Below, in pieces: positions 41,227-61,610 of a DNA stretch of 64,000 bases. The notes beneath the pieces are model-generated. The model made no database searches. It had not been told where the DNA came from and saw only the letters and a program-made list of their open reading frames with translations. Made by a program: the position numbers and the translations under genes. Location of the stretch: assembly GCF_900129855.1 (NCBI RefSeq), contig NZ_LT670819.1:1798001-1862000 (forward strand), read 5' to 3'. Source of the stretch: Streptomyces sp. 3214.6. Lineage in GTDB: Bacteria > Actinomycetota > Actinomycetes > Streptomycetales > Streptomycetaceae. How positions within the stretch are numbered: position 1 is the first letter of the stretch; each line of letters begins with the position of its first letter.

Positions 41227-42094
41227 TCAGCCCGCGTCGGGGATCCAGCTGCCGTGGAAGCCGAGGGGGACCCGGGCCGGCAGATGGACGGTGGCCACGG
41301 GGGCCGCGGTGACGTCCTGGGCCGCCAGGATCACCAGGTCGGTGGCGGAGCCGCTCGGGGTCATGGACGAACACCAACAGATAGCCGTCGTCCTCGGCGC
41401 CACCGGCCGCGGGCACGAAGACCGGCTCGGCGAGCGTCGCGGCCCTGCCGAACGTGCGGATCTCCTGGGTCCCGCGGTGGAGATCGTGCTTGATCAACCG
41501 GTTGGAGAACGCGTCGTCAGGGAGCTGCTCGAGTTCAAGGGTGCTGGCACAGGACTCGATCAGATCGGTGGTGGCCGCCGTGTAGCCGTAGCGGTACGGC
41601 AGCGAGATCAGCCGGTCGTTGATCCGGGGGAACTCCTGCGGTCGGTCGTCGAGGCGCTGCACAGTGGCCTTCCCCGCGGCCGGGTCGAGGGTGGGCGGTC
41701 CAGGGCGGGCGTGCCGTGGCCTTCGATGGAGCCGGTGGCTTTGGACATCATCCTCGGGTGGGTGACCACGTCCAGAACCACGCGCTCCCTGTCGTCGTAG
41801 GCGTTCAGCGTGTGGAAGATCCATACGGGATCCACATCGACCCACCGCACGTCGGCCGCGATTCCCGCCCGCGGCATCACCCCTATGCGGGCCTGGTGCG
41901 CGTCGTTCCACTCGTAGGGAACCGGCGCGCCGCGCAGGGCGGCCTCGCGGCTGAAGGTGACCGGCAGGTCGTAGATGAGGACGTGGTTCTGGGTCAGGGC
42001 GAAGTCGTGCATCATCGCGCCTGACGGCACGGAGATGTTTTCGCTGCGGGTGACCCGGCCCTCGGGGCCGACCACGTGATAGGAGACCTAGCAA
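41227..42094 (-). pseudogene. Carotenoid/lignostilbene oxygenase family, degraded fragment
   Basis: On the minus strand, MMHDFALTQNHVLIYDLPVT, VDPVWIFHTLNAYDDRERVV, then in another frame EFPRINDRLISLPYRYGYTA and EPVFVPAAGGAEDDGYLL, and in a third frame VPLGFHGSWIPDAG, are the ordered C-terminal two-thirds of an iron-dependent carotenoid cleavage oxygenase. Iron-ligand His residues in MMHDFA and WIFHTLN are present. At least two frameshifts (near 41690 and 41340) and loss of the N-terminal third at about 42090 inactivate it. Bacterial relatives cleave lignostilbenes to vanillin, which would suit the nearby aldehyde dehydrogenases. Confidence 0.82.
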
Positions 42095-43484
42095 GCGAGG
42101 CGAATAATGGCGCTTCGCTTCGGCCGTTCGCCGTACCGCCGGAAGGAGCTCGACTGCACATCACCGTCCATGCCCCTGGTCTGGTGGCCCTCGGTGATCT
42201 GCAACAGGAGCTCACGGTCTACCCAGGACGCGACTCGGACGTCGTCCGCTTCGGACTGCGGACAGCAGCCCCCGGCGTGCACCGCGTGACAGCACCGGCC
42301 TTCCGAGGCGGCACCTTTCTCGGAGAGGTGCACTGTCAAATCTCGGTCGAGGACGGCGGACCGACCAGGGACGGCCGTACGCAGACCGCCCTCCTGCCCA
42401 CCTTGGCCTTCGAGCCCGGAGAAGTCACGCTGCAGGTGCTGGAGAAGGACCGGCGGGCCGGCACCTTCACTTTCCAATTGCTCAGTGCCGACTGCCATCC
42501 GCCGGAGGTCTTCAGTTTCCGCGCTGGGGACCCCCGAGAAGCGACCCGGCAGATCTTCGAGGAACTGAAGCGGGCCGCCAAGGCGGCCGCCGACGGTGAC
42601 CGCAGCGTGCACCCGGACAAGCTTCGACGGCGCCTGCGCGCTCACGGAGTTCAGCTGTGGACTTCCGCCGTCCCGGAAGCGGTACAGCACCAGTTCTGGG
42701 AAGAGGTGGATCGGATCACCGCGTTCACTGTCCTCGGGGAGCAGGACATCGTTCCCTGGGAACTCATGTACCCGCTGAACGAGGGACGCGAGGACAGCGG
42801 CTTCCTGGCGGAGTGGCTCCCGGTAGTCCGCCGCGTGTTCGACCAGGAACGGGTCGGAAGTATCGCACTGCCCAACACGGCCTTCGTCGTACCCCCCAAC
42901 TCGCCGCCCGACGCCCACGACGAAGTCGACGTGCTGAGGGCCAGCCTCGGCGCCGAGGTCGTCGACAGGGGAGTGCTCACCGATGGCGAAGCCCTGGGAG
43001 AGCTGATCGAAGGGCTATGCGGGGCTACTTCACTTCGCATGCCACAACTCGTTCAGTGGTGCGGGCTCCCGTGTGCGGATGGCGGATGGTGCCTTTGATC
43101 CGATCGACCTCGCTGCAGCGGCCCAACTGCGCAGTCTGCGCCCATACGGCCCGCTGGTGTTCTTCAACGCCTGCCGCAGCGCCGGCGAGATCGACTGGTT
43201 CGGCGCAAGCCTGGGGGGCCTCGCAGTTCCTGCAGGCCGGTGCCGGGGCGTTCGTTGGAACGCTCTGGCCGGTACGGTCCCAGTCCGCACTGATGTTCGC
43301 CGACGCCTTCTATCGCCAACTCGTCCTGAAGAAGCAGCCACTCGGACAGGCCTCGCTGGCCGCACGTCGAGCCATTAGCGATCAGGACGGTGACCCGACC
43401 TGGCTCGCCTATTCCGTCTACGGCAGCCCGGCCGCCACCGCACACACCACCACTCCCGGAAGTATCGGCGTCAGAAACTCTTGA
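42076..43484 (+). pseudogene. CHAT-domain (caspase-like peptidase) protein, frameshifted
   Basis: The first frame (to about 43015) has a beta-rich N-terminal part, then EQDIVPWELMYPLNEGRED and SGFLAEWLPVVRR, typical of the region before the CHAT core. A frame change near 43020 gives LLHFACHNSFSG (catalytic His) and PLVFFNACRSAGEID (catalytic Cys). A second change in a run of six G near 43210 gives QFLQAGAGAFVGTLWPVRSQ to the C-terminus. CHAT proteins are caspase-like peptidases used in conflict and cell-death systems. The 5' end abuts the broken oxygenase, so the native start is probably lost. Two single-base indels could also be sequencing errors. Confidence 0.78.
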
Positions 43485-43498
43485 GGGAGCCGCAGAAC

Positions 43499-44815
43499 AT
43501 GGACGATTCGGTCTTCGTCATCCACGGCGTGGCCAACCGTGACCAGCAGGGCTTCGCAGCTATGGTCGCCGACCTGCAGACCGCGTCCGGCCTCGACATG
43601 GTGCCGGTCTATTGGGGCGACCTGGGAGCCGACGACCGGTTCATCACGGCCGCGCTGCCTACCCGCCGCGCCGCCGTCCCCGGCGCCCACAAGGACAGTG
43701 GACTGCGCGACGCTGATGAACCACCGAGCGTCGCCCTGCCCGAACCCGTGCTCGTGTCGGCCCTGGCGTCACAACCCGAGGTCCCCGAGCAGTGGCCGCA
43801 GGTGGAGGCCGCCGTGCGTGAGCGGCTGGCGCGCGACGAGCTGCAATTCGGTTCATCGGGGCTACGGCACGCCCCGCTTCGAGAAGACCCGGAGGACGCC
43901 CTCGAGTATCTGGCCGAGGAATGGCCCAAGACGGAATGGCTGCGGCGCACCGACGCCCCTCTCCTGCTCTTCGAAACGAGCCGTTCCCTGGCCGAGGCCC
44001 TCATCGAGGCCGCCGATCTCTGGGCCGACGGCGGTGGCTCCTACGACGGACTGCGGGCCAGCGACGGAGACGCGGGACGGCTGCGGACACTGGTACGCAA
44101 TCGACTGCGCGGCCTGGACCGGGTGGCGGGAGCCGCGATCCAGGCGGCGGCCGGGCGCCTGGATCCCACGCTGCGCACCGAGTTCGGGCCCGGGACCACC
44201 CAGCTCCTGGGGGACGTCCTGGTTTACCAGCGCCACCTGCGGCACGGCGAGTCGCAAAACGTCACGGACAACATCGCCGGGGCCGTGCCGAACGCTTCGC
44301 TGACCGAGCGAGGCCATGAGCAGGCCGCCCTCGCGGCCCGGCCCCTGGTCGGCGAGCGGATCGGCGCGGTCTACTCCAGCACGGCCTTGCGCGCACAGCA
44401 GACAGCCCAGCCGCTTGCCACCGCCGCCGGCGTCGATGTCCAGGTCCTGCCCGACCTCGTGGAGGTCGGCATCGGCAGGCACGAGGGAAGCAGCAACCCC
44501 GCCGTCCGACGGCAGACCGCCGACGTGCTCAGCTCCTGGGTGGTCGACAACGACCTGACACAGCAGGTCGCGGACGGCGAGACCGGCCTCGCGGTCACGG
44601 CCCGCATGAGCAAGGTGTTCCAGGTCATCGCCGAGCAGCACCGGGGCGAGACCGTCGCCGTCGTCGGCCACGTCGCCAGCCTCACCGTCGCACTCGGCCA
44701 GCTCTGCACCGTGGGAGCCGCTGTCTGGGGCACACCCCTGCCCCACGCGCAGCCCTTCCTCATCGAATGGCACGGCTCCACCTGGTGCTGCCCCTCATGG
44801 CCAGAAGCGAACTGA
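43499..44815 (+). CDS. Two-domain protein: alpha/beta-hydrolase-like N-terminus fused to histidine phosphatase
   Basis: A 438-residue protein. The first ~240 residues start VFVIHGVANRDQQGFAAMV, which looks like the opening of an alpha/beta-hydrolase-type domain. The last ~190 residues are a histidine phosphatase/phosphoglycerate-mutase domain: LRHGESQNVTDN with the phospho-His, LTERGHEQAALAA, YSSTALRAQQTAQPLA, and VAVVGHVASLTVAL with the second His. ATG 43499 follows GAGGGAG, and an in-frame TTG lies six codons upstream. It begins 14 bp after the CHAT gene. The role of the fusion is unknown; it may process a small molecule or phosphoprotein in the same system. Confidence 0.7.
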   Translation: MDDSVFVIHGVANRDQQGFAAMVADLQTASGLDMVPVYWGDLGADDRFITAALPTRRAAVPGAHKDSGLRDADEPPSVALPEPVLVSALASQPEVPEQWPQVEAAVRERLARDELQFGSSGLRHAPLREDPEDALEYLAEEWPKTEWLRRTDAPLLLFETSRSLAEALIEAADLWADGGGSYDGLRASDGDAGRLRTLVRNRLRGLDRVAGAAIQAAAGRLDPTLRTEFGPGTTQLLGDVLVYQRHLRHGESQNVTDNIAGAVPNASLTERGHEQAALAARPLVGERIGAVYSSTALRAQQTAQPLATAAGVDVQVLPDLVEVGIGRHEGSSNPAVRRQTADVLSSWVVDNDLTQQVADGETGLAVTARMSKVFQVIAEQHRGETVAVVGHVASLTVALGQLCTVGAAVWGTPLPHAQPFLIEWHGSTWCCPSWPEAN

Positions 44816-44838
44816 CGCACCGCAGCCCAGACGACCCA

Positions 44839-44862
44839 ATCCACAAGTCTTGACTATTGCTC
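44839..44862 (+). repeat. Solo copy of an IS256-type terminal sequence
   Basis: ATCCACAAGTCTTGACTATT (then GCTC) matches the right terminus of the IS256-family element at 53316-55024 except at two positions. No other part of that element is present here, so it is an end left behind by deletion or a related site. Confidence 0.6.
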
Positions 44863-45021
44863 GTCGCTGCCCTCCACTTCTCCGGCAGGGGGAGCATCGT
44901 GGTGATACGGCCCTACTCAGGCGCAGGAGCGGACCTAACAACGGCTGCTGGCACTGGCGCCCGACTCGGTGAAGAGGATCAGCCCGTACGTGCACCGGGA
45001 GAAACCATGACGGTGCAACGG

Positions 45022-45519
45022 TCAGCTCGGCCGAACAATGTCTGGAGGGGGAAGGAGAAGCCCTGCGGGTAGAGCGGTCAGCACCAAGTCGTCGAACTGG
45101 GGTGGCGAATCCCACGAGGCGACAGAATGGAAGTCCACGCTGCCGCTGGGGAACGTCACGCCGTGGAGGCTGACCTCTCCGCCAGAGAACGTCGCATCAT
45201 CAAACTTGACCGTACTGCCGGAGAACACCGCGTCATCGAAACTGACCTCGCTGCCGGAGAACGTCGCGCGGGTGAACCGGACCCCCTTCATACGGCATGG
45301 ACCGTATTACCACTGTTGCTTGGCACGGGGGTCCTCGATCTCGTTGTCTGTCGCGATATGGCCATGCTCCTGATAGGGCATCTCGTCCGGGTGCCGTTCG
45401 AGCCTGGTGCGCCGCCAGGCCGCGTCGAAAGAGAGATTGCCCTGGCTCGCCCGGGCGAGTTGCCACGCCCGCCAGCTCGTCCAGGGCGAGAGGAGCCATC
45501 GCCACACTGACGTACTCAC
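45022..45519 (-). pseudogene. Pentapeptide-repeat protein with an in-frame stop
   Basis: From GTG 45519 the frame reads VSTSVWRWLLSPWTSWRAWQ to NEIEDPRAKQQW and then meets TAA (45307-45309). In the same frame it continues from ATG 45291 as VRFTRATFSGSEVSFDDAVF, STVKFDDATFSGGEVSLHGV, a right-handed beta-helix repeat of the A/F-x-x-x-x type, ending at 45022. The residues on both sides of the stop look like one protein, so TAA is probably a nonsense mutation. Alternatively there are two small genes (70 and 89 codons). It follows the unknown gene 45566-46332 on the same strand. Confidence 0.6.
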
Positions 45520-45565
45520 CGGACCACCACGTCTGCGAGGCCGAGGCAGATACCAGCCGTCCCCC

Positions 45566-46332
45566 TCACGACTCGCCCTCCGGCTGGGTGGCGGCGTGCC
45601 CGTTGACCAGGGCTTGTGCCTTCGCGGCGTGGTGTGGCCTCTGGGCGCTGTCCATGCCGGCGGCCAAAAGCGTGTACACATGCGCTTTTGGGTGTGGTCA
45701 GGGAAGCTGGCGAGGAACTCGCGCAGTACTTCGACGGCCTCGTGCTCGACGCTCCGCTCGTCCTCGGGGCGATACCGGGCGAATACCTCCGCGACCACGT
45801 TTGCATCGTCAGCCAAGCGCACAAGTTGCGACCAGTCGGCATTGTCCCGCTCGATCCATCGTGCCAACAGGGCTGCGGGATGGGCCAGTTCGGCAGCGAG
45901 TGCGCCGGTCTTCTGCAGCCGCAGGGTGTCGGTCACGGCCTGTCGGCGCTGAGCGGCCAGCAGCGCTGCCACGGCGGCCCGGTCGTCCGGTAGCAGGTCG
46001 AGGGTGAGCTTGGCCTTGAACTCGATGAGAGGGTCGGTGGGCAGCTGACGTACTCGGCCGAGGTGCTGGCCGCAGATGTCCCGCGCCGAGGCGAGGTCGG
46101 CCGGGTCACAGGTCTTCGAGACCTTGCTCGCGGCGTCCCTGAGTGTGGTGCGCACGGCTCCTGCGATCTCCTCGACGAGGCTGGGGTAGGGCGGCTCAGT
46201 GAGCACGGTCGCCGTGATCCGGGCGGTGAAGCCGATCCCGGGACAGGCGCTGCGCAGGCGGACCTCGAACCGGGTCAGACCGCGCTGTACCGCTTTGCGC
46301 GCACGGCGGCGCGACCATCGGGTGGAAGTCAT
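45566..46332 (-). pseudogene. Unknown helical protein, frameshifted near its end
   Basis: ATG 46332 opens a frame of about 215 residues (KFEVRLRSACPG-type start, then ARITATVLTEPPYPSLVEEI, DPLIEFKAKLTLDLLPDDR, ARWIERDNADWSQLVRLADD). Near 45690 coding character moves to the -1 frame, HVYTLLAAGMDSAQ...ALVNGHAATQPEGES, ending at a TGA at 45566. The change is explained by loss of one C in a CCCAAAA run. No family is recognised. It starts 3 bp after the stop of the P-loop gene and so was co-expressed with it. Confidence 0.55.
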
Positions 46333-46335
46333 CGG

Positions 46336-48401
46336 TCAGGACTCCGCCGACGCGCGCTCGTGTGCGGTGATCAAGGAGGAGAGCGTCGGAGGCAGCCGGA
46401 GGTCCTTGCGCAGTTCGATGACCGCTTCGCCGTCGGCCACTCCGGGTTCCCCGAAGATGAGCGCGGCGACTGGGGAGGCGACCAGATGGCCCAGCATGAT
46501 CTGGTTGAGAAGGTCCGTCAGGAGCTCGGTCGGCATGTCCGCCGCCTTTCGCGCCTCGGCCCAAGCGGTCAGCAACTGCCGGCATTCAGCTTCGACCCGG
46601 GTGTCGGCCAAGGCCGCGTTCCAGCCGTCCAGGAGCGCTTCCTTGATGTCTTCCTTCTGTTCGGCCGCCGCGAGCATGACTTGCAGAACGTACGGGTCCA
46701 CCCGCGGATCCAGCAGCGACAGGAAGGCCCGATGTCCGGCCAGGTGCTTCTTCTCAGTGGCCCATTTGATGACGGTGCTCCACACCCGCGGCAGCTGGCC
46801 GTCGCGTGCCGCGATGTCCCGCAGCGCATCCTGCGCTGCCTGCACGGCCTCGTCCGTCTCAGACCGGTCGAGGATGTGCCTCAGGCGCACGAGGGCCTGA
46901 CGTGGGTAGTGCTCGGCGAACTCGCCCTGGCAGACCAGTGCCACGACGGTCGCGACGGCCTCCGATTCGTCCTGAGCTGAGTCCAGGAGCAGGGCACGGA
47001 CCTGGACGCCCAGTGTGTCCGCTTCGGCGGCGACTGTCAGGACACGGGCGATCAACTCACGGTGCTCCGTGCTGTCGGCGCCTTTGTCGATCCAGGCGTG
47101 GATCTGCTTGACGACACGGATGTCGTTCTCCGCGACGGCCAGTTCGACCAGAAGGTCGCCGATGGCGGCCAGCCGGTCGGCCCCGGGGCCCTTGGGCGCT
47201 GTGAGGGTGTCCAGCCACTGCAACAGATGGGGGTGGATGTCAGCCCGCTGCTGCCACAGGTGGAGCAGGACGGCACGTGCGTAGCCGGATTTGTGATCGA
47301 GGGAGACCGTCCTTCCGTTGACCTCTGCGCCCATCTTCGTCAGTCGGGTGGTCAGATCGGGTCCGGTAAGGATGGTGCGGACGTCCGTTTCCGGATCATC
47401 GCCCAGCAGCGCTCGGGCGCTGTTCTGGATGGTGAGCGCATCCTTGCCGTTGAGGAACAGGGACGCGATGAGCAGGGCACGGTCCTCGGGCTTGTCCTCG
47501 GTCTCCCTGAATACGTTCTTTACGGCCGTGCGCCACTCCCGGAAGGAGCCGAGGGCGTTCTTGAGGCCATCCGGCGAGTCGTCCGCGGAGGCAAGCTTGG
47601 CGGCCAGTCGGGCAGCATCGTCGGGACGACTGCTGTCGGTCAGCAGATGCCCAGCCTCGCCGGCAGAGCCTTCCTCCGTCGGCGTGGTGAGCCAGCGGAT
47701 TCTGTCAGGAAGGTGGTGCACGTACTCCAGGTGCGACCTGGCCACGCGGTGCGGGGAGGGTCGGGCCGTGGCGCGGGCGACAACGCTGGCGACACGCCCT
47801 CGGGCCAGCCGTGTTCGTCGGCGATCACGACGAGGAAGGAGCCCGAGAACTTCAATTCCTCGGCGTAACTCACCAGTTGCTGGGCGACGAGACCGGGCTT
47901 GTGCCAGGAACTGATCTCCGCGGCCACGTCCAGCAGGTAGCACGTTCCCGGCTCGTCGGGCAGCTCGGTGATATCCGGTAAGCCTGGCCTTTCCCAGTCT
48001 GGCGCGATCGACTGGAGCTTCAGCGCCTTGCCCCCGGAGCGCTCCTCCGCTTGCGAGACCTCCCACAATGCCTTGATGCCGGCAGCGCGTTTGCCGTACC
48101 CGGAAGGCCCGGCGATGACGGCCAGCCGCGGCCCGCCCCCGGTAAGCCGCTCGATCGCGTCGGATGCCGTCCGCACCCTTTCGTCGCGCACGCTCAGCTC
48201 CACCCACGCCCGGCGTACGGCGCGGAGTTCGCTCTGCGGGATGTCGGTGACCGGCAGCGGTGGTTTCCTCGTCATCGTGACGGAGCCCGCGGCTACGATG
48301 ATCTTCGAGTTCTGGTTCCCGCGGATCTGCACTTGCTGGCCGGGCGTCGGTGGGACGCCGGGTGGGGGCGGCACGGCCCCGTGAGCGGTCTCCTCGCTCA
48401 C
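46336..48401 (-). pseudogene. P-loop NTPase-like conflict protein, frameshifted
   Basis: From GTG 48401 the frame reads a low-complexity start, then GNQNSKIIVAAGSVTM, then LAVIAGPSGYGKRAAGIKAL. That is a Walker-A-like loop in which the usual Ser/Thr after GK is Arg. The Asp in GTCYLLDVAAEI and LVVIADEH follow. Near 47797 a two-base insertion (GTGT) throws the frame out; the adjacent frame carries on ASVVARATARPS and SHLEYVHHLPDRIRWL through a long helical region (about 470 residues) to 46336. The helical tail resembles repeat-type sensor regions of STAND-like proteins, but no named family is evident. It overlaps the small gene upstream by 4 bp. Confidence 0.65.
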
Positions 48402-48829
48402 CGGCTCTGCTCCGGTGAGCGGTAGTGGAAGCCACCCGAGGCATTGATGTCGCCGTTGGAGATGACGACCATGCTCTCGGTGTTGTGGTGCACACTCGTC
48501 CGCGCCCCGTCACCGTTGTCTGCTCCCTTGACCTGGTCAATCAGGTCCTGCAGCTCCTGGACTGCGTCGGGATGCTTCCTCAGGAATACCGCCAACTGCA
48601 TTTCCAGCTCGCTTCGCAGCTGTTGTTCCACCGACCCGCGTTCACTGGCCGCGCTGTCGAGGAGTTGCTGCCGTGACGAGTCGACCAGCTGCAGTTCCTG
48701 TTCAGCGCTCTCCTCACCACCACGCCGGAAGAGCCGGGCGACAGCAGCCCGCACGGAATCCCACGTGCTCTTGGCCATCTCGGTGACCAGAGCTCCGGCT
48801 CCCACGCCCGCGACTTGCATGATGTCCAA
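48398..48829 (-). CDS. Small protein with coiled middle and Gly/Asn-rich C-terminal motif
   Basis: A 143-residue protein of unknown function. There is a short Gly/Ala N-terminal segment (VAGVGAGALVTEMAKSTWDS), a charged helical middle (about residues 45-105) that could form a coiled coil, and a C-terminal tail TESMVVISNGDINASGGFHY. The tail resembles short Gly/Asn/His-rich motifs found in many Streptomyces conflict proteins. The next gene (P-loop protein) overlaps its stop by GTGA and carries a comparable motif at its own N-terminus, suggesting that the two proteins interact. Confidence 0.6.
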   Translation of the reverse strand: MDIMQVAGVGAGALVTEMAKSTWDSVRAAVARLFRRGGEESAEQELQLVDSSRQQLLDSAASERGSVEQQLRSELEMQLAVFLRKHPDAVQELQDLIDQVKGADNGDGARTSVHHNTESMVVISNGDINASGGFHYRSPEQSR

Positions 48830-49531
48830 CGCGTCCCCCAGGGTCGTATCCCCTACTCGGCGAGGCGTGCAGGGGTCGGCGGCATATTCGACACATCAGG
48901 GTGGATGTCTGTGCGGGGGTCGGTAATCGAAAGTATTTGCCACATATCTGAACGCGTAATTTTCAACTACCCGGAACCGGTCAGTCCTTGCGGGTGTGGT
49001 GAGGCGCACGTGAGACGAGGTAACTAAAACTCGGGCAAAACGGTCCACTGGCGGATGTTTTCCGAGGACATTTGGCCAATGGGTCGCTTTGGGTAATTGT
49101 CCTGAAGTGGGCGCAGTATGCAGATGTGAGCCCCGGGCGTCGGTTAGGCGGGTGACGCGTGAGCGGTAAACGGGGCGTGTGCGGTCCCCGGGTATAGAAC
49201 CGGCCACGTAAGAGGGCCACGACAGCGGGACCGCTCGCACGCCATTGCTTCGGCCTGCACAGGGTCGGTTTCCTGCCCGGACTTCCCGATCGCACTGGGC
49301 GCATTGAGCGCTGCGGCGGCGGAGAGCCTCCAAGCTCCAGGGTCCGTCTGAGGACTGGGGCGAACCCAGCCGCGCCACGGGTGGGGATGTACTCGGTGGG
49401 CCAGGGCCGAGCTACAGCGCCTTCGCCCGCACCCGAAGATCAGCACGGACGACGACCCGCCGCAACCACACTGAAATGCCCGTTTTCCGAGGCCGCCTGT
49501 GCACCCTGGTCGGAAACACGGAAAGAAGACC
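48830..49531. other. Intergenic gap, AT-richer, possible transposon end
   Basis: No gene is supported in these 0.7 kb. From 48900 to 49110 the sequence is clearly more AT-rich than its surroundings and contains four (G/C)GTAA(T/C) elements (48922, 48955, 49019, 49092), three of them followed by an AA-containing half. Tn7-like ends carry several short transposase-binding sites, so this could be one end of the module encoded to the right. This is a guess from composition and position. Confidence 0.3.
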
Positions 49532-51016
49532 ATGGACGTCCCAAGCTCCTTGCGCAGGCTGGCGTTGGTCCCCGAGCCGTACTCTGGTGAGTCGCTGCTC
49601 AGCTGGGTGGATGCGCTCGCGCGCCTCAATCAGGTCTCCCGGCCCATGGCGCTGCGACTGACGGGCATAGCCAACACCTCAGCGCTGTCGGACAGCTTCG
49701 GCCACCACATCAGCGACACCGTCGTTCACTCGGTTCGCCTCACCACCGGGCTGACGGAAGAACAGGTGCGGGGCATAACGCTTGCCCGCTACGCAGGAGT
49801 GGCACTGGACCCACTGCCGCAACCTGACGCGGAAGGACGGTACGCCCTGGGCGGCTGGAGATATTGGCAGCGGAAAGTGTTGCGCCCGCATTCCAGCGCC
49901 TGCCCGGTGTGTCTGAGTGAGAACGGCGCCCGGTGGCTGTTGAAGTGGCGGCTGATTTGGTCCTTCGCGTGTGTCGAGCACCAGCGTTACCTGATCTCGG
50001 AATGCCGAGGTTGTGACGCTGGCCTCCATCCCCCGAGGCCCGGGACTCCTCAGTCCTGGATCTGCCCCGGGCCAGCTCCTGGCTGGGGACGCTACAAGCC
50101 GAGCAGGCCCTGTGGCCGTGACATCCGCCGCATGACTGCGAAGCCAGTCCATGACGTCCAACTTCTCGACTGCCAGCAGCGGATCGACCGCCTCCTGGAT
50201 GGTTCTGGAGACCCATCACGCGAGCAAGTGCGCGAGCTTTTCGGAGCGTTGTACCGATCGATGCAGGAGGCGTGGAACGCGGAGCGGCCGGTGCACCTCC
50301 CTCGCACCGACAAGGTCGTCGACCAGGCCTGGGGCAGAGACCACGCACCCGACGGCTTCCGCTGGCAGCCTCGCCCACTGATCGTGGCCGCCGCTCTTAA
50401 GATCGCAACCGAGGCTGGCCTCGGCTCGGAGAACGGTAGGACAAGCAAAGCAGCAGACCAGGTGAAGGCGCGGCCGAACTGGGGGCCTCCCCGGCCGCGG
50501 ATCCTCGTACCCCGTGGCGAGTTCCAACTGCCTGCGAACCGCTTCGGAGGTTACTGCCACCACGAAGGCTGCGGAACCTGGGTGCCGGCTGGGCACGGTG
50601 CGAGGGTGAACGACGCATCAGGCGGAGGCACTTACTGTCCACAGCACGCGGACCAGTTCATCGCCCAGGCATGTCCTCGGGCACACTCCGGACCGATCAC
50701 GAGCACTGACCCCCGACTCCGATTCCTCGACGCGCGGCTCTGTGAGGAAGAACGGCGGCTTCAAGAGGGGAACGCCGAACTGTCAGAGCGGGTGATCGCG
50801 GGTCAGCGGCTGATCCTGGACGCCTGCATAGACACCGATCCACGAACCAGCGAGGGGAAAGCGCTGCGGTATGCCGCACGGTGCCTGCTGCTGCCCTACG
50901 TCAGCCACCCGGAGTTTCGGCCGACGTGGCTGCCTCGACGGGGTGAGAACCCCGCGTACCCCATCGCGGAGGGCTCGACCGGCGGGGCCAACGGCGAGAT
51001 GGTGGGCCGTGGCTGA
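49532..51016 (+). CDS. tniQ: TniQ-family protein (first copy)
   Basis: A 494-residue TniQ/TnsD-type target-selection protein. The N-terminal TniQ domain shows LALVPEPYSGESLLSWVDAL, LRLTGIANTS and a zinc-binding cluster CPVCLSENGARWLLKWRL...CVEHQRYLISECRGC. The C-terminal region has further CHHEGCGTWVP and YCPQHADQF zinc-type segments. ATG 49532 with a GAAAGAAG site is preferred. Such proteins choose the target for Tn7/Tn5053-type transposition. It is the longest of three tniQ genes and is closely related in its first 30 residues to the one at 52026-53141. It overlaps the second tniQ by 8 bp. Confidence 0.87.
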   Translation: MDVPSSLRRLALVPEPYSGESLLSWVDALARLNQVSRPMALRLTGIANTSALSDSFGHHISDTVVHSVRLTTGLTEEQVRGITLARYAGVALDPLPQPDAEGRYALGGWRYWQRKVLRPHSSACPVCLSENGARWLLKWRLIWSFACVEHQRYLISECRGCDAGLHPPRPGTPQSWICPGPAPGWGRYKPSRPCGRDIRRMTAKPVHDVQLLDCQQRIDRLLDGSGDPSREQVRELFGALYRSMQEAWNAERPVHLPRTDKVVDQAWGRDHAPDGFRWQPRPLIVAAALKIATEAGLGSENGRTSKAADQVKARPNWGPPRPRILVPRGEFQLPANRFGGYCHHEGCGTWVPAGHGARVNDASGGGTYCPQHADQFIAQACPRAHSGPITSTDPRLRFLDARLCEEERRLQEGNAELSERVIAGQRLILDACIDTDPRTSEGKALRYAARCLLLPYVSHPEFRPTWLPRRGENPAYPIAEGSTGGANGEMVGRG

Positions 51017-51965
51017 CCAAGAGCGAGTCCGGCGGCTCGGGTCGGTTGCGACTCCGTTGGCCGGGGAGTCGTTTCTCAGCTGGGTCGACACCCTGGCTGT
51101 TACCTGGAATGTGCAGCGCGGAGTGGCTTTGCGGGAACTGGGGCTGCCCGGCCGGCCGGATTTCGGCGCAGCGCAAATTCATCTGAGCCCTGAAGGGCTT
51201 GAAGGAGTGTGCCGACGGACGGGGCTGCGGCCGGTGCAGGTGAAGCGGATACTGTTTTCCTTCTACGCTCCTACGGCACTGCCCCAGTTCGCGTCCTACG
51301 AAAGTCGGAAGTGGCCCGTCCGCGTTCCTTGGCTGCGGCGCGATCACTCGGCGGCGTGTCCTCTTTGCCTGCAGGCGTCGGAGGGCCGCTGGTTGCTCAG
51401 CTGGAGGTTGAAATGGACCTTCCTGTGTGCGGATCACCTGGTGTACTTGGTGGACCGTTGTCCACGCTGCAATCTGCGGCTCTATTGGCGTCATGAGTGG
51501 ACCGGTGCTGGACAGCGGGAGCACTGCACTCGGCCCTTGGGGCAGCGAAATCGTGCGGCCATCCGCGCAGGTGCCACAGTGTGCGGGTTCCGGGTCCTGG
51601 AGATTCCAGCAGTCCCTGTGGACGACGAAGAGGCTGTCCACGTCCAACGCCGTGTCTCCGCGCTGCTCACACCCGCAGACGCCTCGCACAATGATCTGTC
51701 GCGCCGCTTGATGGTAAAGATGTCAGAGATCGTCCGAGATGCTGCACAAAGGAAGACGATGGGCGCCATGCTCGACCGGATGGAAGACAGCGTCGTACGA
51801 GCCGTCGAGAGCGTGAGGCCACCTTTCGATGACCACCCACCGTTGTCGTGGACGCTGGAGAACGGATCGCCCGCCGCCGTTTCCGCCCTCGTGCGTATTG
51901 CCGCCCGCACTGTGCTGTTGGACAGCCCGGGTGCCGACGCCGCCGCTGACGGTGCGATCAACTAA
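51009..51965 (+). CDS. tniQ: TniQ-family protein (second, divergent copy)
   Basis: A 318-residue protein starting at GTG 51009 inside the end of the first tniQ. It has LGSVATPLAGESFLSWVDTL, the HLSPEGLEGVCRRTGLRPVQ helix-turn-helix-like part and the zinc cluster CPLCLQASEGRWLLSWRLKW...CADHLVYLVDRCPRC. It lacks the extra C-terminal zinc segments of the other two copies. Being co-translated with the first copy, it could act as a partner, as in Tn7-like systems that need two TniQ-type proteins. Confidence 0.85.
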   Translation: MADQERVRRLGSVATPLAGESFLSWVDTLAVTWNVQRGVALRELGLPGRPDFGAAQIHLSPEGLEGVCRRTGLRPVQVKRILFSFYAPTALPQFASYESRKWPVRVPWLRRDHSAACPLCLQASEGRWLLSWRLKWTFLCADHLVYLVDRCPRCNLRLYWRHEWTGAGQREHCTRPLGQRNRAAIRAGATVCGFRVLEIPAVPVDDEEAVHVQRRVSALLTPADASHNDLSRRLMVKMSEIVRDAAQRKTMGAMLDRMEDSVVRAVESVRPPFDDHPPLSWTLENGSPAAVSALVRIAARTVLLDSPGADAAADGAIN

Positions 51966-52025
51966 TAGGGCCCCGGCCTGACTGCAACGAGTCACGGCGT
52001 GCCGTGGCGAGAATGCCTCGACGAC

Positions 52026-53141
52026 TCAGCGAGGCACAGAGCCGCAATTGTCTGATGTGGTGGCGCGATCGACGTGCTTGGAGCACAGAACCAGCGGACC
52101 GTCCTTCGTCTGTGCCACGACTCCTTGCCCTGGCGGTACCCAGACCAGGCAGGCGACAGCCCGGCACGTGCCGCCGAAGCGGTTGACCGGCGCCACGGCT
52201 CCGGTCGCCCTGGGAAAGCCGTCCGTCGACCACGAGGCCATGTCCACCTGATCGTGGACCCTTTGGGCGGTGCCGAGGCCACCCAGCGTGGCGATCTTGA
52301 TAAGGGCCGCGGTCAGCAGCGGATCGTCCAGATACGACAAGATACCGCCGTGGCCGCGCCACCGCCGGTGGAGCACGGCCTCGGTGTCCGGAAGCGACGG
52401 GGCGAAGTCGTAGCCGCCGGTGATGTCCTCCAGCGCCAGGTGCAACGTGCGCAGGATGTCTGTGCTGCCCGGACGGTGTGGATGGTCGACGAGATCGTCG
52501 AGACGGCGCTGGCATTCAAGGAGGTGTGGGTCGGACAGTCGGGGCGGACGCATGCGCCAGATGGAGCGCTGGCAGACGACCCCCGGACGTCTCCAGTCGG
52601 GCTGGCCGCACACCACAGCGCTTCCCAGACTAGGAATCACCTGATGCAGACCCCTGCCGCAACCGCGGCAGGAACTGATCAGGAAAGCGCGGTGGCGTAC
52701 ACAGGCGAAGGACCAGATCAGACGCCATCGCAGCAACCACCGTCCGCCGTTTTCCACCAGACAGGCTGGACACGCGCGCGACCGGAGCGGCTGGGCAAGT
52801 CGCTGGCGGTGCAACCGCATGGCGATCGTCCGATGGTTCACAGAGGAAGGCGCCCCCGCCAGAACACCATCCGCATAATGCATGAGCGTTATCCGACGGA
52901 GTTCCCCGGCCGACAAGCCGGTGGTCACCCCCACGCGAGCCATCGTTCCTGTCGGAAGATGGGTGCCGAAGCGCACGCTGGGCCGGTACGTGGAGCCGCC
53001 GGGGCGGGCAAAGGCCGAGAAGCGCAGGGCATGCAGGCGGCTGATCCGGTTGAGTCGGGCGAGTGCGTCGACCCAGCTGAGCAGGGACTCACCGGGATAC
53101 GGCTCCGGTACCAGAGCAAGGCGACGCAACGATTCGGACAC
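52026..53141 (-). CDS. tniQ: TniQ-family protein (third copy, downstream of tniB)
   Basis: A 371-residue TniQ protein on the minus strand, from GTG 53141, with LALVPEPYPGESLLSWVDAL, the zinc cluster CPACLVENGGRWLLRWRLIW...CVRHRAFLISSCRGC, and a C-terminal segment FGGTCRAVACLVWVPPGQG. It lies directly downstream of the tniB tail (56 bp) and so is the original last gene of the tnsA-tniA-tniB-tniQ operon. The first two copies face it convergently with a 60-bp gap. Confidence 0.88.
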   Translation of the reverse strand: MSESLRRLALVPEPYPGESLLSWVDALARLNRISRLHALRFSAFARPGGSTYRPSVRFGTHLPTGTMARVGVTTGLSAGELRRITLMHYADGVLAGAPSSVNHRTIAMRLHRQRLAQPLRSRACPACLVENGGRWLLRWRLIWSFACVRHRAFLISSCRGCGRGLHQVIPSLGSAVVCGQPDWRRPGVVCQRSIWRMRPPRLSDPHLLECQRRLDDLVDHPHRPGSTDILRTLHLALEDITGGYDFAPSLPDTEAVLHRRWRGHGGILSYLDDPLLTAALIKIATLGGLGTAQRVHDQVDMASWSTDGFPRATGAVAPVNRFGGTCRAVACLVWVPPGQGVVAQTKDGPLVLCSKHVDRATTSDNCGSVPR

Positions 53142-53196
53142 ACGCAGAGCATGCCAGTGAGCCCTTATCGGGCCACGTCAGGCGCTACTTGTGTCC

Positions 53197-53315
53197 TCAG
53201 GCACTTCCGTCTGCTGCGGCCGACTTCTTTTTCGGCTTGCTTGTGCTCTTAGACGACGGGCGGGACCGCAGTTCGACAACCTTGGCGTAGGTACGTTCGT
53301 GGTCGTACCGACAGG
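53197..53315 (-). pseudogene. tniB: tniB, displaced 3' end
   Basis: On the minus strand this encodes YDHERTYAKVVELRSRPSSK and a lysine-rich tail KPKKKSAAADGSA with a stop at 53197. Joined to the tniB body at 55025, across the removed IS256 element and one target copy, it makes a continuous C-terminus LSYDHERTYAKVVE. The basic tail is reasonable for a DNA-associated AAA+ ATPase. Confidence 0.72.
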
Positions 53316-53438
53316 GAGCAATGCTCAAGACTTGTGGATCAGCCTCGGGTTGGCGCGTGAAGGGCGTACCTTCCCGAATGATCCTGTGATGGTCATCGAG
53401 TAGGCCGACGTTGGCGCGTCGGTCGGGAAGGCACGCCC

Positions 53439-54689
53439 GTGCTCACGGTAGTCAACGAAGACGGAACGACACCACACGGCTCCCTGATCGACGAGATCGT
53501 CCGGGAGGGCGCACGGCGGATGCTGGCCGCCGCGCTGGAAGCCGAAGTCAACACCTACATAGCCGAGTTGGCTGATCAGCGGGACGCGTCCGGGCGGCGT
53601 CTGGTGGTGCGCAACGGCTTCCACCAGCCGCGGAAGGTCACGACCGCGGCCGGGGCGATCGAGGTGAAGGCCCCGCGGGTCAATGACAAGCGCGTCGACG
53701 AGGCCACCGGGGAGCGCAAGCGGTTCTCCTCGGCGATCCTGCCGCCCTGGGCCCGCAAGTCCCCGAAGATCAGCGAGGTGCTCCCTCTGCTCTATCTGCA
53801 CGGCCTGTCGTCGGGTGACTTCGTGCCCGCGCTGGAGCAGTTCCTCGGCTCCTCCGCCGGCCTCTCGCCCGCCACGGTCACCCGGCTGACCGGGCAGTGG
53901 CAGGCCGATCACACGGCATTCGGCGAGCGTGACCTGTCGGCGACGGACTACGTGTACGTGTGGGCCGACGGCATCCACCTGCGGATCCGCCTGGCCGAGG
54001 CGAAGTCCTGCGTGCTGGTCGTCATGGGGGTGCGCGCGGACGGCACGAAGGAGCTGATCGCGATGGCCGACGGCTACCGCGAGTCCGCCGAGTCCTGGGC
54101 CGACCTGCTGCGTGACTGCGCACGGCGCGGGATGCGCGCTCCGGTCCTCGCGGTCGGCGACGGAGCACTGGGCTTTTGGAAGGCCCTGGCAGAGGTGTTT
54201 CCCGAGGCCCGCCATCAGCGGTGCTGGGTTCATAAAACGGCCAATGTGCTCAACGCGATCCCGACGTCGGCCCAGCCCAGCGCGCGAAAGGCGCTGCAGG
54301 ACATCTACAACGCCGAGGACCGCGACCATGCGGTGAAAGCCGTCGCCGCATTCGAGAAGACCTACGGCGCGAAGTGGCCCAAGGCCGTCAAGAAGATCAC
54401 CGACGACGTTGACGAGCTGCTGGCGTTCTACGACTTCCCGGCCGAGCACTGGGTTCACCTGCGCACCACGAATCCGATCGAATCGACCTTCGCGACAGTG
54501 CGGCTGAGGACCAAGGTCACCAAGGGCGCCGGCAGCGCGGCCGCCGCACTTGCCATGGTCTTCAAGCTCGTCGAATCCGCCCAGGCGCGCTGGCGAGCGG
54601 TCAACGCGCCCCACCTCGTGGCACTCGTCCGTGCCGGAGCCCGCTTCGAACGCGGCCTCCTGGCCGAGCGGCCGAAGGCGGCGGCGTGA
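53439..54689 (+). CDS. IS256-family transposase
   Basis: A 416-residue DDE transposase of the IS256/mutator family. The frame is complete: RDASGRRLVVRNGFHQPRKV, the Asp in VYVWADGIHLRIR, GMRAPVLAVGDGALGFWKAL (second Asp), HQRCWVHKTANVLNAIP and the C-terminal Glu region TTNPIESTFATVRLRT. The start at 53439 or a nearby codon fits the family N-terminus. It has no visible damage, so the element may be active. Confidence 0.93.
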   Translation: MLTVVNEDGTTPHGSLIDEIVREGARRMLAAALEAEVNTYIAELADQRDASGRRLVVRNGFHQPRKVTTAAGAIEVKAPRVNDKRVDEATGERKRFSSAILPPWARKSPKISEVLPLLYLHGLSSGDFVPALEQFLGSSAGLSPATVTRLTGQWQADHTAFGERDLSATDYVYVWADGIHLRIRLAEAKSCVLVVMGVRADGTKELIAMADGYRESAESWADLLRDCARRGMRAPVLAVGDGALGFWKALAEVFPEARHQRCWVHKTANVLNAIPTSAQPSARKALQDIYNAEDRDHAVKAVAAFEKTYGAKWPKAVKKITDDVDELLAFYDFPAEHWVHLRTTNPIESTFATVRLRTKVTKGAGSAAAALAMVFKLVESAQARWRAVNAPHLVALVRAGARFERGLLAERPKAAA

Positions 54690-54994
54690 TGAACCAAAGA
54701 CGCCGACCGGGGCGATCTTGGCCGCGAAGCAACCGCGGCTACGCTCTACTCAAAGTGGACATCGTCGAGGACGACGCCTGGTCGTCCCAGCCAGAAGCCG
54801 CCCGCAGCCTGGGCATCACGCTCATCCGCGTCGGGATGCTCATCGCCAACCGCCGTCTCATACCGGCAGAGAACCCGGCTGGTCAGGCTGGAGTCACAAC
54901 TGCCAGCGTCCAAGCCGAGGAAATCTGGCGAGCGAACGCGACAAAGCGAGCGAAGCTCGCCCGTCTCCTGAAGGACACGATCAACTGGTTCTGA
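54689..54994 (+). CDS. Small accessory protein of the IS256 element
   Basis: A short protein (about 100 residues) whose ATG at 54689 overlaps the transposase stop (TGATG), indicating coupled translation. The middle PEAARSLGITLIRVGMLIAN looks like a helix-turn-helix, and the C-terminus is helical and basic (RANATKRAKLARLLKD). No named family is recognised. It ends just before the right terminal repeat. Confidence 0.6.
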   Translation: MNQRRRPGRSWPRSNRGYALLKVDIVEDDAWSSQPEAARSLGITLIRVGMLIANRRLIPAENPAGQAGVTTASVQAEEIWRANATKRAKLARLLKDTINWF

Positions 54995-55024
54995 TCACTG
55001 ATCCACAAGTCTTGACGATAGCTC

Positions 55025-55860
55025 TACGACAGGACGATGGAGTCCATGATCTCGCGCGTGATGGCCTCAGTTCCGAGCTTGACAGCGCGCACGGCACTGC
55101 GGCGGATGAGAGCGTGGAGACCAGCGATGCTGCCGTTGGTGCGGTCGTGGAGGTAGCGCCAGTGTCGGCGGGTCAGGCTCTTCTTCTCGTGCGCGTGGTT
55201 GGCGATGAACTTGATGTGGTCATTGGAGGCCCGCCCCTCCTTTTGGGAGCAGTCCAGGAAATGCAGGTCGTCAAAGACGAGCAACTGCGTACCGCATGCC
55301 TTGAGCGCGGTCAGGACACGATCGTCGATGGTGTCCTTGGTGCCGCTGGTAGGCACATTCAGGTAACGGGCGATCGCGATGGAGATCTGCTTGGGGGTGA
55401 CCTGGTCGGCGAGGGAGATGTAGACAACGGGGACGTACGCCCCCAGCCGATCAGGGGCAAACCGCTCGGGGAAATCCTCGCGGAGGTCGAGCTCGAACTT
55501 CCGGCCGATCATCTTGACCAGAGTGGACTTACCGACCGTAGGTGGGCCGTCGATGAGAAGTCCCAGCCGAGCTCCGGGTGGAGCCATCTCGTTCGCATCG
55601 AGCAGTTCCGTGATCTCCGATTCGAAGTGCTGAACGGCAGGAGTCCAGGCCAGAACCAAGGCGCTGTGATACCGGTTGCGGCTGCGGATCAGACGACGCC
55701 GTTCCGGATCGTCTTCGGCCATCGCCACATAGGTGTCGTACGGGGGAAGGCGAGGACGGGGTGGCGGTTCGTAGAAGACGTACGCGAACCAGTCCTCCTT
55801 GGTACGCGGTTCGGCCAGACCGGGATGGGTGCTGTCGGAGTCCTTCGGCGGCAGGGCCAT
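55025..55860 (-). pseudogene. tniB: tniB (TnsC-type AAA+ ATPase), interrupted and internally deleted
   Basis: ATG 55860 overlaps the tniA stop (TGATG). The protein has an N-terminal linker, Walker A LLIDGPPTVGKSTLVKM and Walker B TQLLVFDDLHFLDC, typical of the transposition regulators TniB/TnsC. After HIKFIANHAHEKK it jumps to RRHWRYLHDRTNGSIAGLHA. By comparison with family members as I recall them, some 60-80 residues including the sensor region are missing, an in-frame internal deletion. The IS256 element then interrupts the 3' end at 55024 and a TAG ends the frame two bases inside the junction. Confidence 0.8.
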
Positions 55861-56606
55861 CACAGTGTGTCGTCCTCCTCTGGACGGCCGCCCCACACCT
55901 CGTACGCCGGCAGAGTGTCGAAGTCGATCGTGGCCTCTCCTTCGTCGTCCGCGGGCAGCGGTGGCACGGCCCGCAGGTGGGAATCCTTGACCGATGCCTC
56001 GGCGGCGGAATCGACAAGGTCGGTGCGAGCTTTGTCCCGCGCCGCCGCCCTGGCTCGCTCGGCGTCCCGGGCCCGCGCCCGGCGGGAGCGTGCGGTGGAC
56101 GCCTCGGCGGCGTCCGTGCGGTTCTGCAAGTCCAGCAACGCGTCCAACACGGCCTCTTGATCCTCTGGATTGCGCCCTCGTTCGCGCAATTCCTGCTTGA
56201 CCTGGCGCAGCGTGATGTCCGTGAACGGCTCCAGCCCGGTCAGGGCATGCGTCCAGCGCAGAGTGTGCCAGTCGCCGGTGTAGGGGTCGTGGAGGTAGAC
56301 CTGTGTCATGTCCCGCGGGTCGTAGCGGACCGGCCAGGCGCCCGTGGCGTGTGCGTAGGGGGACTTGGCACCGTTGTACGTGCCCGTGATGGGCGCGCTG
56401 TAGTGCAGGTAGTCCTTCTGGATGCGGCGGTCGTGAATCCCGCACCAGTGGATCGGCAGCAGCTCCAGGAACAGGTTCGGATCGCGTGGGGCAGCGATGT
56501 AGCCGCAGCGGTGCACCGCCAGCCGGTAAGCGTCGTTGGGTGACAGGCTGATCTCCGGGAATCCCGGCAGCACCAGCCCTTTGTGCTGGCGCCGCTGGTA
56601 GACCGC
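55860..56606 (-). pseudogene. tniA: tniA, C-terminal part (separated by an inserted element)
   Basis: The minus strand reads AVYQRRQHKGLVLPGFPEIS and LAVHRCGYIAAPRDPNLFLE, then LLPIHWCGIHDRRIQKDYLH. This is the Mu-transposase-type C-terminal barrel of TniA, with a charged helical tail for contact with TniB. It is the direct continuation of the frame broken at 61611. Its 5' boundary at 56606 is the ACCGC repeat of the inserted tyrosine-recombinase element. Confidence 0.82.
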
Positions 56607-56792
56607 TTTACCGACCGCAGGAGCTCGTGAACCGGCTCTGAACTGCGGCGATTCATAGACTACATGTTCGTGACGATGGGATGGGGTCCTCGCTGTAACT
56701 CGACCCTGCGGACCTCGACCCCGGACTGTTGTTGATCACTCCGGGCCAGATATTCGCTGTGTCCGGGGGCCGGGTGTTCGTAGGGTCCGTGC

Positions 56793-57158
56793 ATGACGGA
56801 CGAGAGTGAGCGGGCAGTGCAAGCGGCCATTGATGGGGAGTTGCGGCTTCTGGATCCTGAGGTGCGTGCTTCTCCAGCCCTCGTTTTGGAGCTTCTGGAT
56901 CCGGAGTTCACCGAGATCGGAGCGTCTGGTCGCTGGTGGGACGTGGAGTCGATCCTCACGGTGACGAGTGGGGGAACAGTGTCCTCGGAGTCGCCGGTCA
57001 AGGTCAGCAAGATGTCCGGGACCGTCCTGGCTCCGGGGATCGTTCACCTGACGTACTTCGCCGACAACCAGGAGCGCCGGGCATGGCGGAGCTCCTTGTG
57101 GCGCCTGACCGAGACGGGCTGGCGCCTGTACTTTCACCAAGGCACTTTGGCCAGTTGA
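56793..57158 (+). CDS. NTF2-like (DUF4440-type) small protein, element cargo
   Basis: A 121-residue protein beginning TDESERAVQAAIDGELRLLD, with FTEIGASGRWWDVESILTVT and the closing strands WRSSLWRLTETGWRLYFHQG. This is the SnoaL/NTF2-like cone fold of the DUF4440 group. It may bind a small ligand or act as an enzyme; no catalytic residues can be assigned. It is the only gene of the inserted element on the plus strand, so it is probably cargo. A bidirectional terminator separates it from tnpC. Confidence 0.75.
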   Translation: MTDESERAVQAAIDGELRLLDPEVRASPALVLELLDPEFTEIGASGRWWDVESILTVTSGGTVSSESPVKVSKMSGTVLAPGIVHLTYFADNQERRAWRSSLWRLTETGWRLYFHQGTLAS

Positions 57159-57260
57159 AGGATGTCTGCCCCGCCGTCGGCGAGGGCGGCAGGAGCACAT
57201 CTGTCCTCCCACCGAAAGGCCGCAGGTGGGGCCAAACACTCACTTCCGGAATCAGTGGGA

Positions 57261-57291
57261 TGGCCCGTCCACCGGGACGGTGGACGGGCCA
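57261..57291. terminator. Bidirectional hairpin terminator
   Basis: TGGCCCGTCCACC (57261-57273) is the exact complement of GGTGGACGGGCCA (57279-57291), with a 5-base loop. It lies between the convergent NTF2-like gene and the tnpC-type gene and can serve both. Confidence 0.85.
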
Positions 57292-57312
57292 TGAGATGCC
57301 GGCGGGATGTGA

Positions 57313-61513: not shown

Positions 61514-61610
61514 GACGAACGTCCTGAACCCGGTCGGTAAACAAGCCCATGACGTCCACGCCACAGGCTCGAACGGACATCACGAACAGCACAAACTGCG
61601 GTCGGTAAAA

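Follow-up and report, generated by a model that had tools for sequence, protein, structure and literature searches.

A dead operon copy with Bell/BASS-like features where three gene blocks meet in Streptomyces sp. 3214.6

Bacterial amyloid signalosomes have been described as adjacent genes in which a small helical Bell domain carries a BASS motif at its C-terminus and an NLR protein carries the same motif at its N-terminus; further partners mentioned there are TIR and CHAT (PMC7889193). Bell/BASS-NLR signalosomes are reported from actinobacteria (PMC7889193, PMC8086366, PMC12261475, PMC9815663); a Frankia BASS3 peptide contains GVQVGDGNVQI (PMC8086366). In a fungal model, foci are formed by a BASS3 motif from Streptomyces atratus (PMC9815663). 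In VMAP ternary systems, a caspase-superfamily domain is reported always to occur with a neighbouring alpha/beta-hydrolase gene (Kaur et al., 2020, PMC7159879). Here we analyze a stretch of 64,000 nucleotides (the window; all positions refer to it unless stated otherwise) from the single-contig 9.38 Mb chromosome of Streptomyces sp. 3214.6 (NZ_LT670819.1, positions 1,798,001 to 1,862,000). An initial annotation, made from the letters alone, had proposed a decayed conflict system of six genes around a CHAT protease at 42076-48829.

All six components named in that annotation were found: a CHAT-type peptidase remnant (A), a frame with alpha/beta-hydrolase-like and histidine-phosphatase parts (B), a pentapeptide fragment (C), a helical protein (D), a P-loop protein (E) and a small protein (F). 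The transposition genes said to adjoin them are also present, as TniQ genes from 49499. The six-gene system is nevertheless not supported. What lies at 42076-48829 is the meeting of three blocks, namely a CHAT/hydrolase remnant, a histidine-phosphatase gene and an operon of F, E, D and a seventh gene, G. This operon is supported, and its copy in the window is dead. Gene G (about 45307-45525, minus strand) was absent from the earlier gene list because a frame change in D merged D and G into one long open frame. A and B lie on the plus strand, and C, G, D, E and F on the minus strand. The annotation was right about decay and too high in its count of four disrupted genes, since small frame changes affect three of the six (two in A, one in E and one in D); B is a single open frame yet chimeric, C is a fragment and F is intact. 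We consider it probable that unrelated gene fragments have accumulated at 42076-48829 next to a mobile element that is itself decaying, and that the right half of this interval is a wrecked F-E-D-G signalling operon in which E would template F through a shared motif.

The operon remnant occupies 45307-48829 on the minus strand. F (48398..48829), a small helical first component with a C-terminal motif tail, is 73% identical to its counterpart in the fetched locus L034 and overlaps E by 4 bases, as it also does in locus L035. A single-sequence structure model of F, of low confidence (predicted local distance difference test, pLDDT, 54), has five helices and no helix or strand past residue 104. 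E (46336..48401), a degenerate P-loop protein with a long helical tail and an N-terminal motif, has 79% amino-acid identity to the open copy of L034, and its frame changes once, between 47775 and 47805. D (45566..46332), the soluble third component, has one small indel or frame change and 255-aa open homologues in L034 and L040. G (45307..45525), a small conserved protein with an uncertain start codon, was delineated by tblastn and by an alignment of seven members with 16 invariant positions.

Relatives of E were sought in 150 genomes of the genus, the window's own included, with the C-terminal 426 residues of E as query and an E-value cut-off of 1e-5. The close relatives had 79% (genome G104), 80% (G099) and 59% (G083) identity to this query. 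In these three of the 149 other genomes the operon was found unbroken, with F, E, D and G ordered and oriented as in the window and an uninterrupted reading frame for E; the G099 copy is cut by the start of its contig inside F. Genome G048 held E fragments only. DNA homology between the window and G104 (L034) covers 45328-48996 plus 49073-49154 and stops within G, and that to L040 likewise halts inside G, short of C. The pentapeptide-repeat fragment C (45022..45291, minus strand; Pfam Pentapeptide_3, E-value 9.4e-8) is therefore placed outside the operon and, judged from these alignments, appears to belong to none of the three blocks; a role as a component was rejected, as the homology to intact operons ends before it and no match to C occurred in the fetched stretches. 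The window's genome has a single place each for E, F and G, so that no intact spare copy was found in it. In a wider search of 296 genomes of the class, the window's included, 8 matched E at 1e-10.

That all six proteins once acted together in one conflict system, now decayed, is suggested by the closeness of the genes, by the decay common to them and by the resemblance of each half, on its own, to parts of conflict systems. We regard this as very improbable. At 1e-5 the CHAT N-terminal region of A and the hydrolase half of B (B1) each matched none of the 149 other genomes of the genus, though E-type proteins occur in 49 of the 150. The stretches round the three F-E-D-G copies contained no match to pieces of A or B, the two halves are on opposite strands, and homology has a sharp edge at the start of the phosphatase as well as ending, for the operon, before the pentapeptide piece. 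The search for co-occurring homologues of all six genes that had been recommended thus gave separate distributions, with A/B1 in 0 of 149 and F-E-D-G in 3 of 149 genomes, and in intact genomes the homologues do not occur together. Two unrelated loci joined by deletion, the case which the initial annotation had itself set against its proposal, describes the six-gene set. Its expectation that intact relatives could define a system of no known name holds for F-E-D-G, a conflict-type operon unmatched in PADLOC, and fails for the six-gene set. What looks in raw sequence like a "fusion" or a "multi-gene system" can arise where unrelated fragments have been joined.

Sequencing error was also considered as the only source of the breaks and was rejected. 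All five genes called at 34.0-41.2 kb have long, uninterrupted reading frames, and truncated or shifted genes start at about 41.6 kb. From these positions sequencing error is unlikely to be the sole cause.

E-type proteins extend well beyond the close relatives, and about a third of the sampled Streptomyces-like genomes carry one (49 of 150). The 53 E places gave 50 fetched stretches, the window, a short contig of genome G050 and a second place in G048 (on the same stretch as the first) being left out. Genes in the fetched regions were called with a simple composition-based caller. Locus L041, which holds E fragments, was left out of this step; E was called open in 44 of the 49 loci entered (not in L036, L037, L063, L078 and L098), and four further loci (L045, L087, L094 and L095) lacked a first gene within 400 bases, which left 40 pairs of first gene and E, or 41 with the window. 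The usual layout was first gene, E and third gene. Among the 40 first genes, 26 matched Pfam TIR_2, and the others include F-type helical proteins. Some first proteins are possibly cyclase-like; Pfam and PDB searches gave no confirmation, and a PDB search with one of them returned no match.

The tail of F (...NTESMVVISNGDINASG...) and the start of E (...NQNSKIIVAAGSVTM...) are alike in the window, and the likeness is stronger in relatives. In the 41 pairs we compared the tail of the first gene product with the first 60 residues of E and derived p values, uncorrected, from shuffles. The pairing reached a p of 0.01 or less in 26 of the 41 and of 0.05 or less in 31, with values of 0.014 for the window (uncorrected), 0.002 for L034 and 0.01 for L040. 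L035 failed this test with 60 residues, yet it scored 84 and ranked first with a longer E N-terminus. We also compared all tails with all E N-termini (95 residues) among 22 cluster representatives. The cognate mean was 53.0 against 31.9 for non-cognate pairs, a level not reached in any of 20,000 permutations (p 5e-5). The motifs are rich in Gly and Asn and vary between families.

A plasmid of Streptomyces anulatus (L140) carries an F-E pair with a four-base overlap, in which VIQIG stands in the tail of F and VQVG near the N-terminus of E. These RHIM-like cores are present in the plasmid homologue and not in the window. The F of the window aligns with that of the plasmid through the tail (31% identity, E-value 2e-12), and a G-like frame follows the plasmid pair in the translation, as judged by eye. 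In L121, L122 and L124 the first proteins are 261 aa long and of no assigned family, and their tail VSFSHTGEHGIQAYN is almost identical to an early stretch of the following E, VRFSHSGEHGIQAYN.

At TIR-type loci the third gene usually opens with a segment that looks hydrophobic by eye; for L042, the only one computed, the maximum hydropathy was 2.5. The members of the family alignments were picked by hand (11 E proteins, six soluble D proteins and 10 membrane-type third components). When aligned with hhalign, the D alignment matched that of the membrane-type components over 139 columns (probability 96.4, E-value 1.3e-9). By this match, D is the soluble form of the common third component. A PDB search with the membrane-type component found no match.

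The G profile matched 45 of the 150 genomes. G and E were found together in 27 genomes, whereas about 15 would be expected from 45 and 49 of 150, and 17 of 57 G places lay within 3 kb of an E place. Of 20 further G places that were fetched, eight came with an open frame of E type in the surrounding sequence. E-type genes were also found on eight plasmid records. We put about even weight on the view that F-E-D-G is a branch of a modular and so far unnamed family of Streptomyces immune signalosomes, with a first gene freely exchanged among Bell-like helical, TIR and possibly cyclase-like types, a sensor with a degenerate P-loop, a homotypic tail that co-evolves pairwise, a third component of membrane or soluble type, and G in one branch. 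Although the copy in the window is dead, it leads to a family that is widespread, lacks annotation and can be tested.

For E, D and G no confident match was obtained in Pfam, in PADLOC or, for the window pieces only, in NCBIfam scans. PADLOC gave no match for the window pieces of A (N-terminal piece only), B, C, D and E, nor for the 11 E proteins, and a PDB search with the E profile returned only generic P-loop matches at 0.0016 or worse. The Walker A motif of E is degenerate, with a lysine that lacks the following Ser or Thr in the close group and no lysine in several others. F as an AbiEii protein was rejected, the PADLOC match (0.0025) being weak. No paper describing an E-D-G operon was found in the open-access literature searched, judged by titles and the beginnings of abstracts; a mention in Dyrka et al. 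2020, on the Bell/BASS-NLR signalosomes, is possible.

Two of the operon copies have defence genes as neighbours. In genome G104 (L034) the operon follows IetA- and IetS-like genes (PADLOC E-values 6.9e-67 and 2.4e-33), with no match for a further neighbour beside G, and in G083 (L035) a gene for a GajA/OLD-like nuclease (1.5e-24) adjoins it. Near the more distant locus L045 there is a restriction-type helicase. The neighbours scanned were picked by eye, and we accordingly regard them as an illustration rather than as an enrichment. This selection is one of the points in favor of F-E-D-G serving housekeeping or developmental signalling in Streptomyces and standing beside defence genes by chance. 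E-type proteins are also common (49 of 150 genomes), and in several genomes (L042, L043, L044, L079, L082 and L097) operons of TIR, E and a membrane protein stand beside the same gene, by eye metK; a fixed chromosomal site is unusual for a conflict-like operon. Against a housekeeping role, the close F-E-D-G family is patchy, with three other clear cases among the 150 genomes and E fragments in a fourth, and it decays, as in the window, in G048 and in G108, where a G-like sequence occurs without E or D nearby. The IetAS- and GajA/OLD-like neighbours and the eight plasmid records argue in the same direction. Altogether we find such a role improbable.

The first of the remaining blocks begins with A (42076..43484, plus strand), a 5'-truncated remnant of a CHAT peptidase of the caspase superfamily, recognized by alignment to a CHAT protein from a Hymenobacter plasmid (NZ_CP095052). 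The sequence of A runs through three reading frames (about 42076-43013, 43013-43218 and 43218-43484), with changes near 43013 and 43218. It aligns to residues 434-713 of the 857-aa Hymenobacter protein, and since the match starts at residue 434, A has probably lost a large N-terminal part. The middle piece contains HFACH and NACRSA, which align with the His and Cys motifs of the Hymenobacter protein, and the C-terminal piece is 53% identical over 73 columns. The His and Cys of a caspase-superfamily peptidase are thus present in A, though the gene is frameshifted. Pfam gave no match for the two pieces of A that were scanned, and a wider search of 296 genomes of the class found three weak matches besides the window (E-value 0.001). 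To the left, A begins exactly where a carotenoid-oxygenase fragment (41608..42075, minus strand; Pfam RPE65, 2.6e-25, profile positions 185-291 of 469) is cut.

B1 (43481..44235, plus strand) was identified by alignment as the N-terminal half of an alpha/beta-hydrolase-type effector, with the catalytic half missing. Over residues 1-250, B is 29% identical to residues 1-246 of a Hymenobacter protein of 422 aa, and a weak Pfam Abhydrolase match of that protein (0.0087) lies at residues 265-342, past the part aligned to B1; the hydrolase identity of B1 hence concerns an N-terminal half judged by this alignment. The remainder, B2 (44236..44866, plus strand; Pfam His_Phos_1, 3.4e-35, B residues 253-438), is a histidine-phosphatase gene of branch 1 which stands alone elsewhere. 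With a little flanking DNA it is 92.5% identical to the gene of Streptomyces tateyamensis (L057), over 44236-44863, and 90% identical to that of Streptomyces sp. VRA16 (L058), over 44240-44866. Three genomes from another family (G442, G446 and G449) begin to match at 44236-44237, which makes five genomes in all with an edge at 44236-44240. Among the matches listed in 40 other genomes, none spanned the junction. The phosphatase homology begins at the very junction where the hydrolase homology of B1 ends, so that B combines one half of a first gene with a second gene, probably by accident. A genuine hydrolase/phosphatase fusion, as the initial annotation had described B, was rejected on this edge; the same order of domains was not found among the relatives compared.

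The stand-alone phosphatase gene follows the end remains of an IS256-type transposase, judged by eye, in L057 (about 7850-8000) and L058 (7563-7991), and it may travel with an element of this type. L058 and the IS256-type gene of the window have 73.5% DNA identity over 302 bases.

Within the plasmid collection, relatives of A and of B1 were found together on the Hymenobacter plasmid alone, where they lie side by side. The hydrolase relative directly precedes the 857-aa CHAT protein; with one more CHAT protein and a protein of the TerB family, the run reads TerB, CHAT, hydrolase, CHAT (L059, 2835-9275). Compared with this set, the order and number of genes in the window differ, the identity is about 26-29% and the host belongs to a different phylum. 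PADLOC gave no match for the three proteins of the run that were scanned, and the run may itself be a conflict system. On plasmids, relatives of the Hymenobacter hydrolase were found near genes for an AAA or MoxR ATPase and for FxsT or FxsC, or beside a caspase-family gene; a fourth relative inspected had no annotated caspase. The similarity of these relatives lies mostly in the hydrolase half that is missing from B, and their link to B1 therefore runs through the Hymenobacter protein.

The pair of A and B1 appears to be the remnant of an already published kind of pair, caspase superfamily and alpha/beta-hydrolase (PMC7159879). As in the vWA-MoxR and GTPase-centric systems set out in that paper, a gene for a CHAT-type peptidase adjoins one that, judged from its remaining N-terminal half, is probably for an alpha/beta-hydrolase. 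In contrast to them, no MoxR, vWA or GTPase core was found alongside the remnant and both of its genes are truncated. Core genes of the MoxR and vWA types were absent from the 20 protein pieces of the window scanned between 41.6 and 63.8 kb.

On the right, 49499-63783 of the window together with 780-1895 of L033 form a decayed Tn7-like element. The window contains three TniQ-like frames with Pfam or PADLOC matches, a TniB/TnsC fragment, and a TnsB-like frame (rve match) and a TnsA-like frame that both fall below the Pfam cut-off; a fourth frame, in L033 780-1895, looks like TniQ by eye. Two recombinases of the phage-integrase type and a DUF6262 protein stand between the TnsB-like frame and what appears to be the remainder of TnsB (55863-56573, no Pfam match). 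This interruption resembles a Tn554-like insertion. Past the fourth TniQ-like frame two near-identical 23-base repeats lie 32 bases apart, at the window equivalents of 64924 and 64956 (L033, about 1924 and 1956), and may be sites at which a transposase binds the right end. Allowing up to six mismatches, we found no further copy from 40 kb of the window to the end of L033, for which reason the left end may be lost; a comparison for a matching left end, direct or inverted, yielded no copy of the repeat and only three seeds of 12 bases, overlapping or single. In genome G108 a G-like sequence (L120, about 4306-4512) stands beside TniQ- and IS256-looking pieces, by eye, as in the window. No E- or D-profile match was found near it, and two of the TniQ/IS256-looking pieces that were scanned had no Pfam match. 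It is perhaps a second decayed island of the same kind in another genome.

For the F-E-D-G operon we propose the following mode of action by analogy with the Bell/BASS-NLR pairs. E, with its degenerate P-loop and long helical part, would be the sensor and would oligomerize on detecting infection. Its exposed N-terminal motif would then template its counterpart in the C-terminal tail of F, in a homotypic and probably cross-beta manner. Once clustered, the helical domain of F could damage the membrane or kill the cell otherwise. D, whose counterpart in sister systems is of membrane type, may hold the complex at a surface, and G would be accessory. The operon would probably act for infection-triggered cell death. 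If the tail pairing is a templating switch, the family offers a large natural set of matched sensor and effector motifs for direct tests of specificity.

Several observations weigh against this mode of action. Ten of the 41 tail/E pairs miss a p of 0.05, and only seven of the 22 cognates rank first among all partners, which we ascribe to the resemblance of many TIR-type motifs to each other. At the loci fetched through G, three of eight pairs match strongly but are near-copies and five do not match; L140 was left unscored there, only part of its E having been called, and its motifs were read directly. The motif in the window lacks the glutamine of the RHIM/BASS3 core. F-type proteins were found in 72 of the 150 genomes (E-value 0.001), more than E, so that many of them are not tied to E. 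The maximum 19-residue hydropathy of F is a modest 1.23. Pfam scans of the 11 E proteins found no NACHT or NB-ARC domain at 0.05, the best match being nSTAND_NTPase5 at 0.032 in one of the 11, and the E piece of the window matched AAA_16 at 0.01, below its cut-off. For D, a structure model of low confidence (pLDDT 54) gave no Foldseek match at an E-value of 0.001 or better; flotillin at rank 6 (0.52) and a stomatin SPFH domain at rank 17 (1.9), both non-significant, are no more than a hint that D might be SPFH-like.

In another explanation F-E-D-G is real and the motif is a non-amyloid docking tag of beta-strand type, with enzymatic or regulatory signalling and F as a regulator instead of a killer. 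In favor of it, first proteins are often TIR proteins (26 of 40) and some are possibly cyclase-like, the Gly/Asn-rich motifs differ between families, F has no strong transmembrane segment and E has no canonical Walker A. However, a tail at the C-terminus of the first gene product and at the N-terminus of the second is the layout stated for BASS pairs (PMC7889193), and the plasmid homologue carries RHIM-like cores. We hold the docking tag to be unlikely, while giving it more weight than the other alternatives.

Compared with Bell/BASS-NLR systems as published, F-E-D-G differs in that E is not recognized as NACHT or NB-ARC, in its extra conserved genes D and G, and in the missing Q of the RHIM-like core in the window motif. 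Because of the nature of E and the lack of the RHIM-type Q, we do not file F-E-D-G as a member of that group. It shares with it adjacent or overlapping genes, a helical first protein, F, with a C-terminal motif followed by an NTPase-fold protein, E, with a like motif at its N-terminus, and TIR among the first domains. The Bell/BASS arrangement of an adjacent helical first protein and an NTPase-fold protein with like motifs is thus present in the F-E pair, and the best reading of F-E-D-G is that of a Bell/BASS-like operon which may signal through homotypic motifs.

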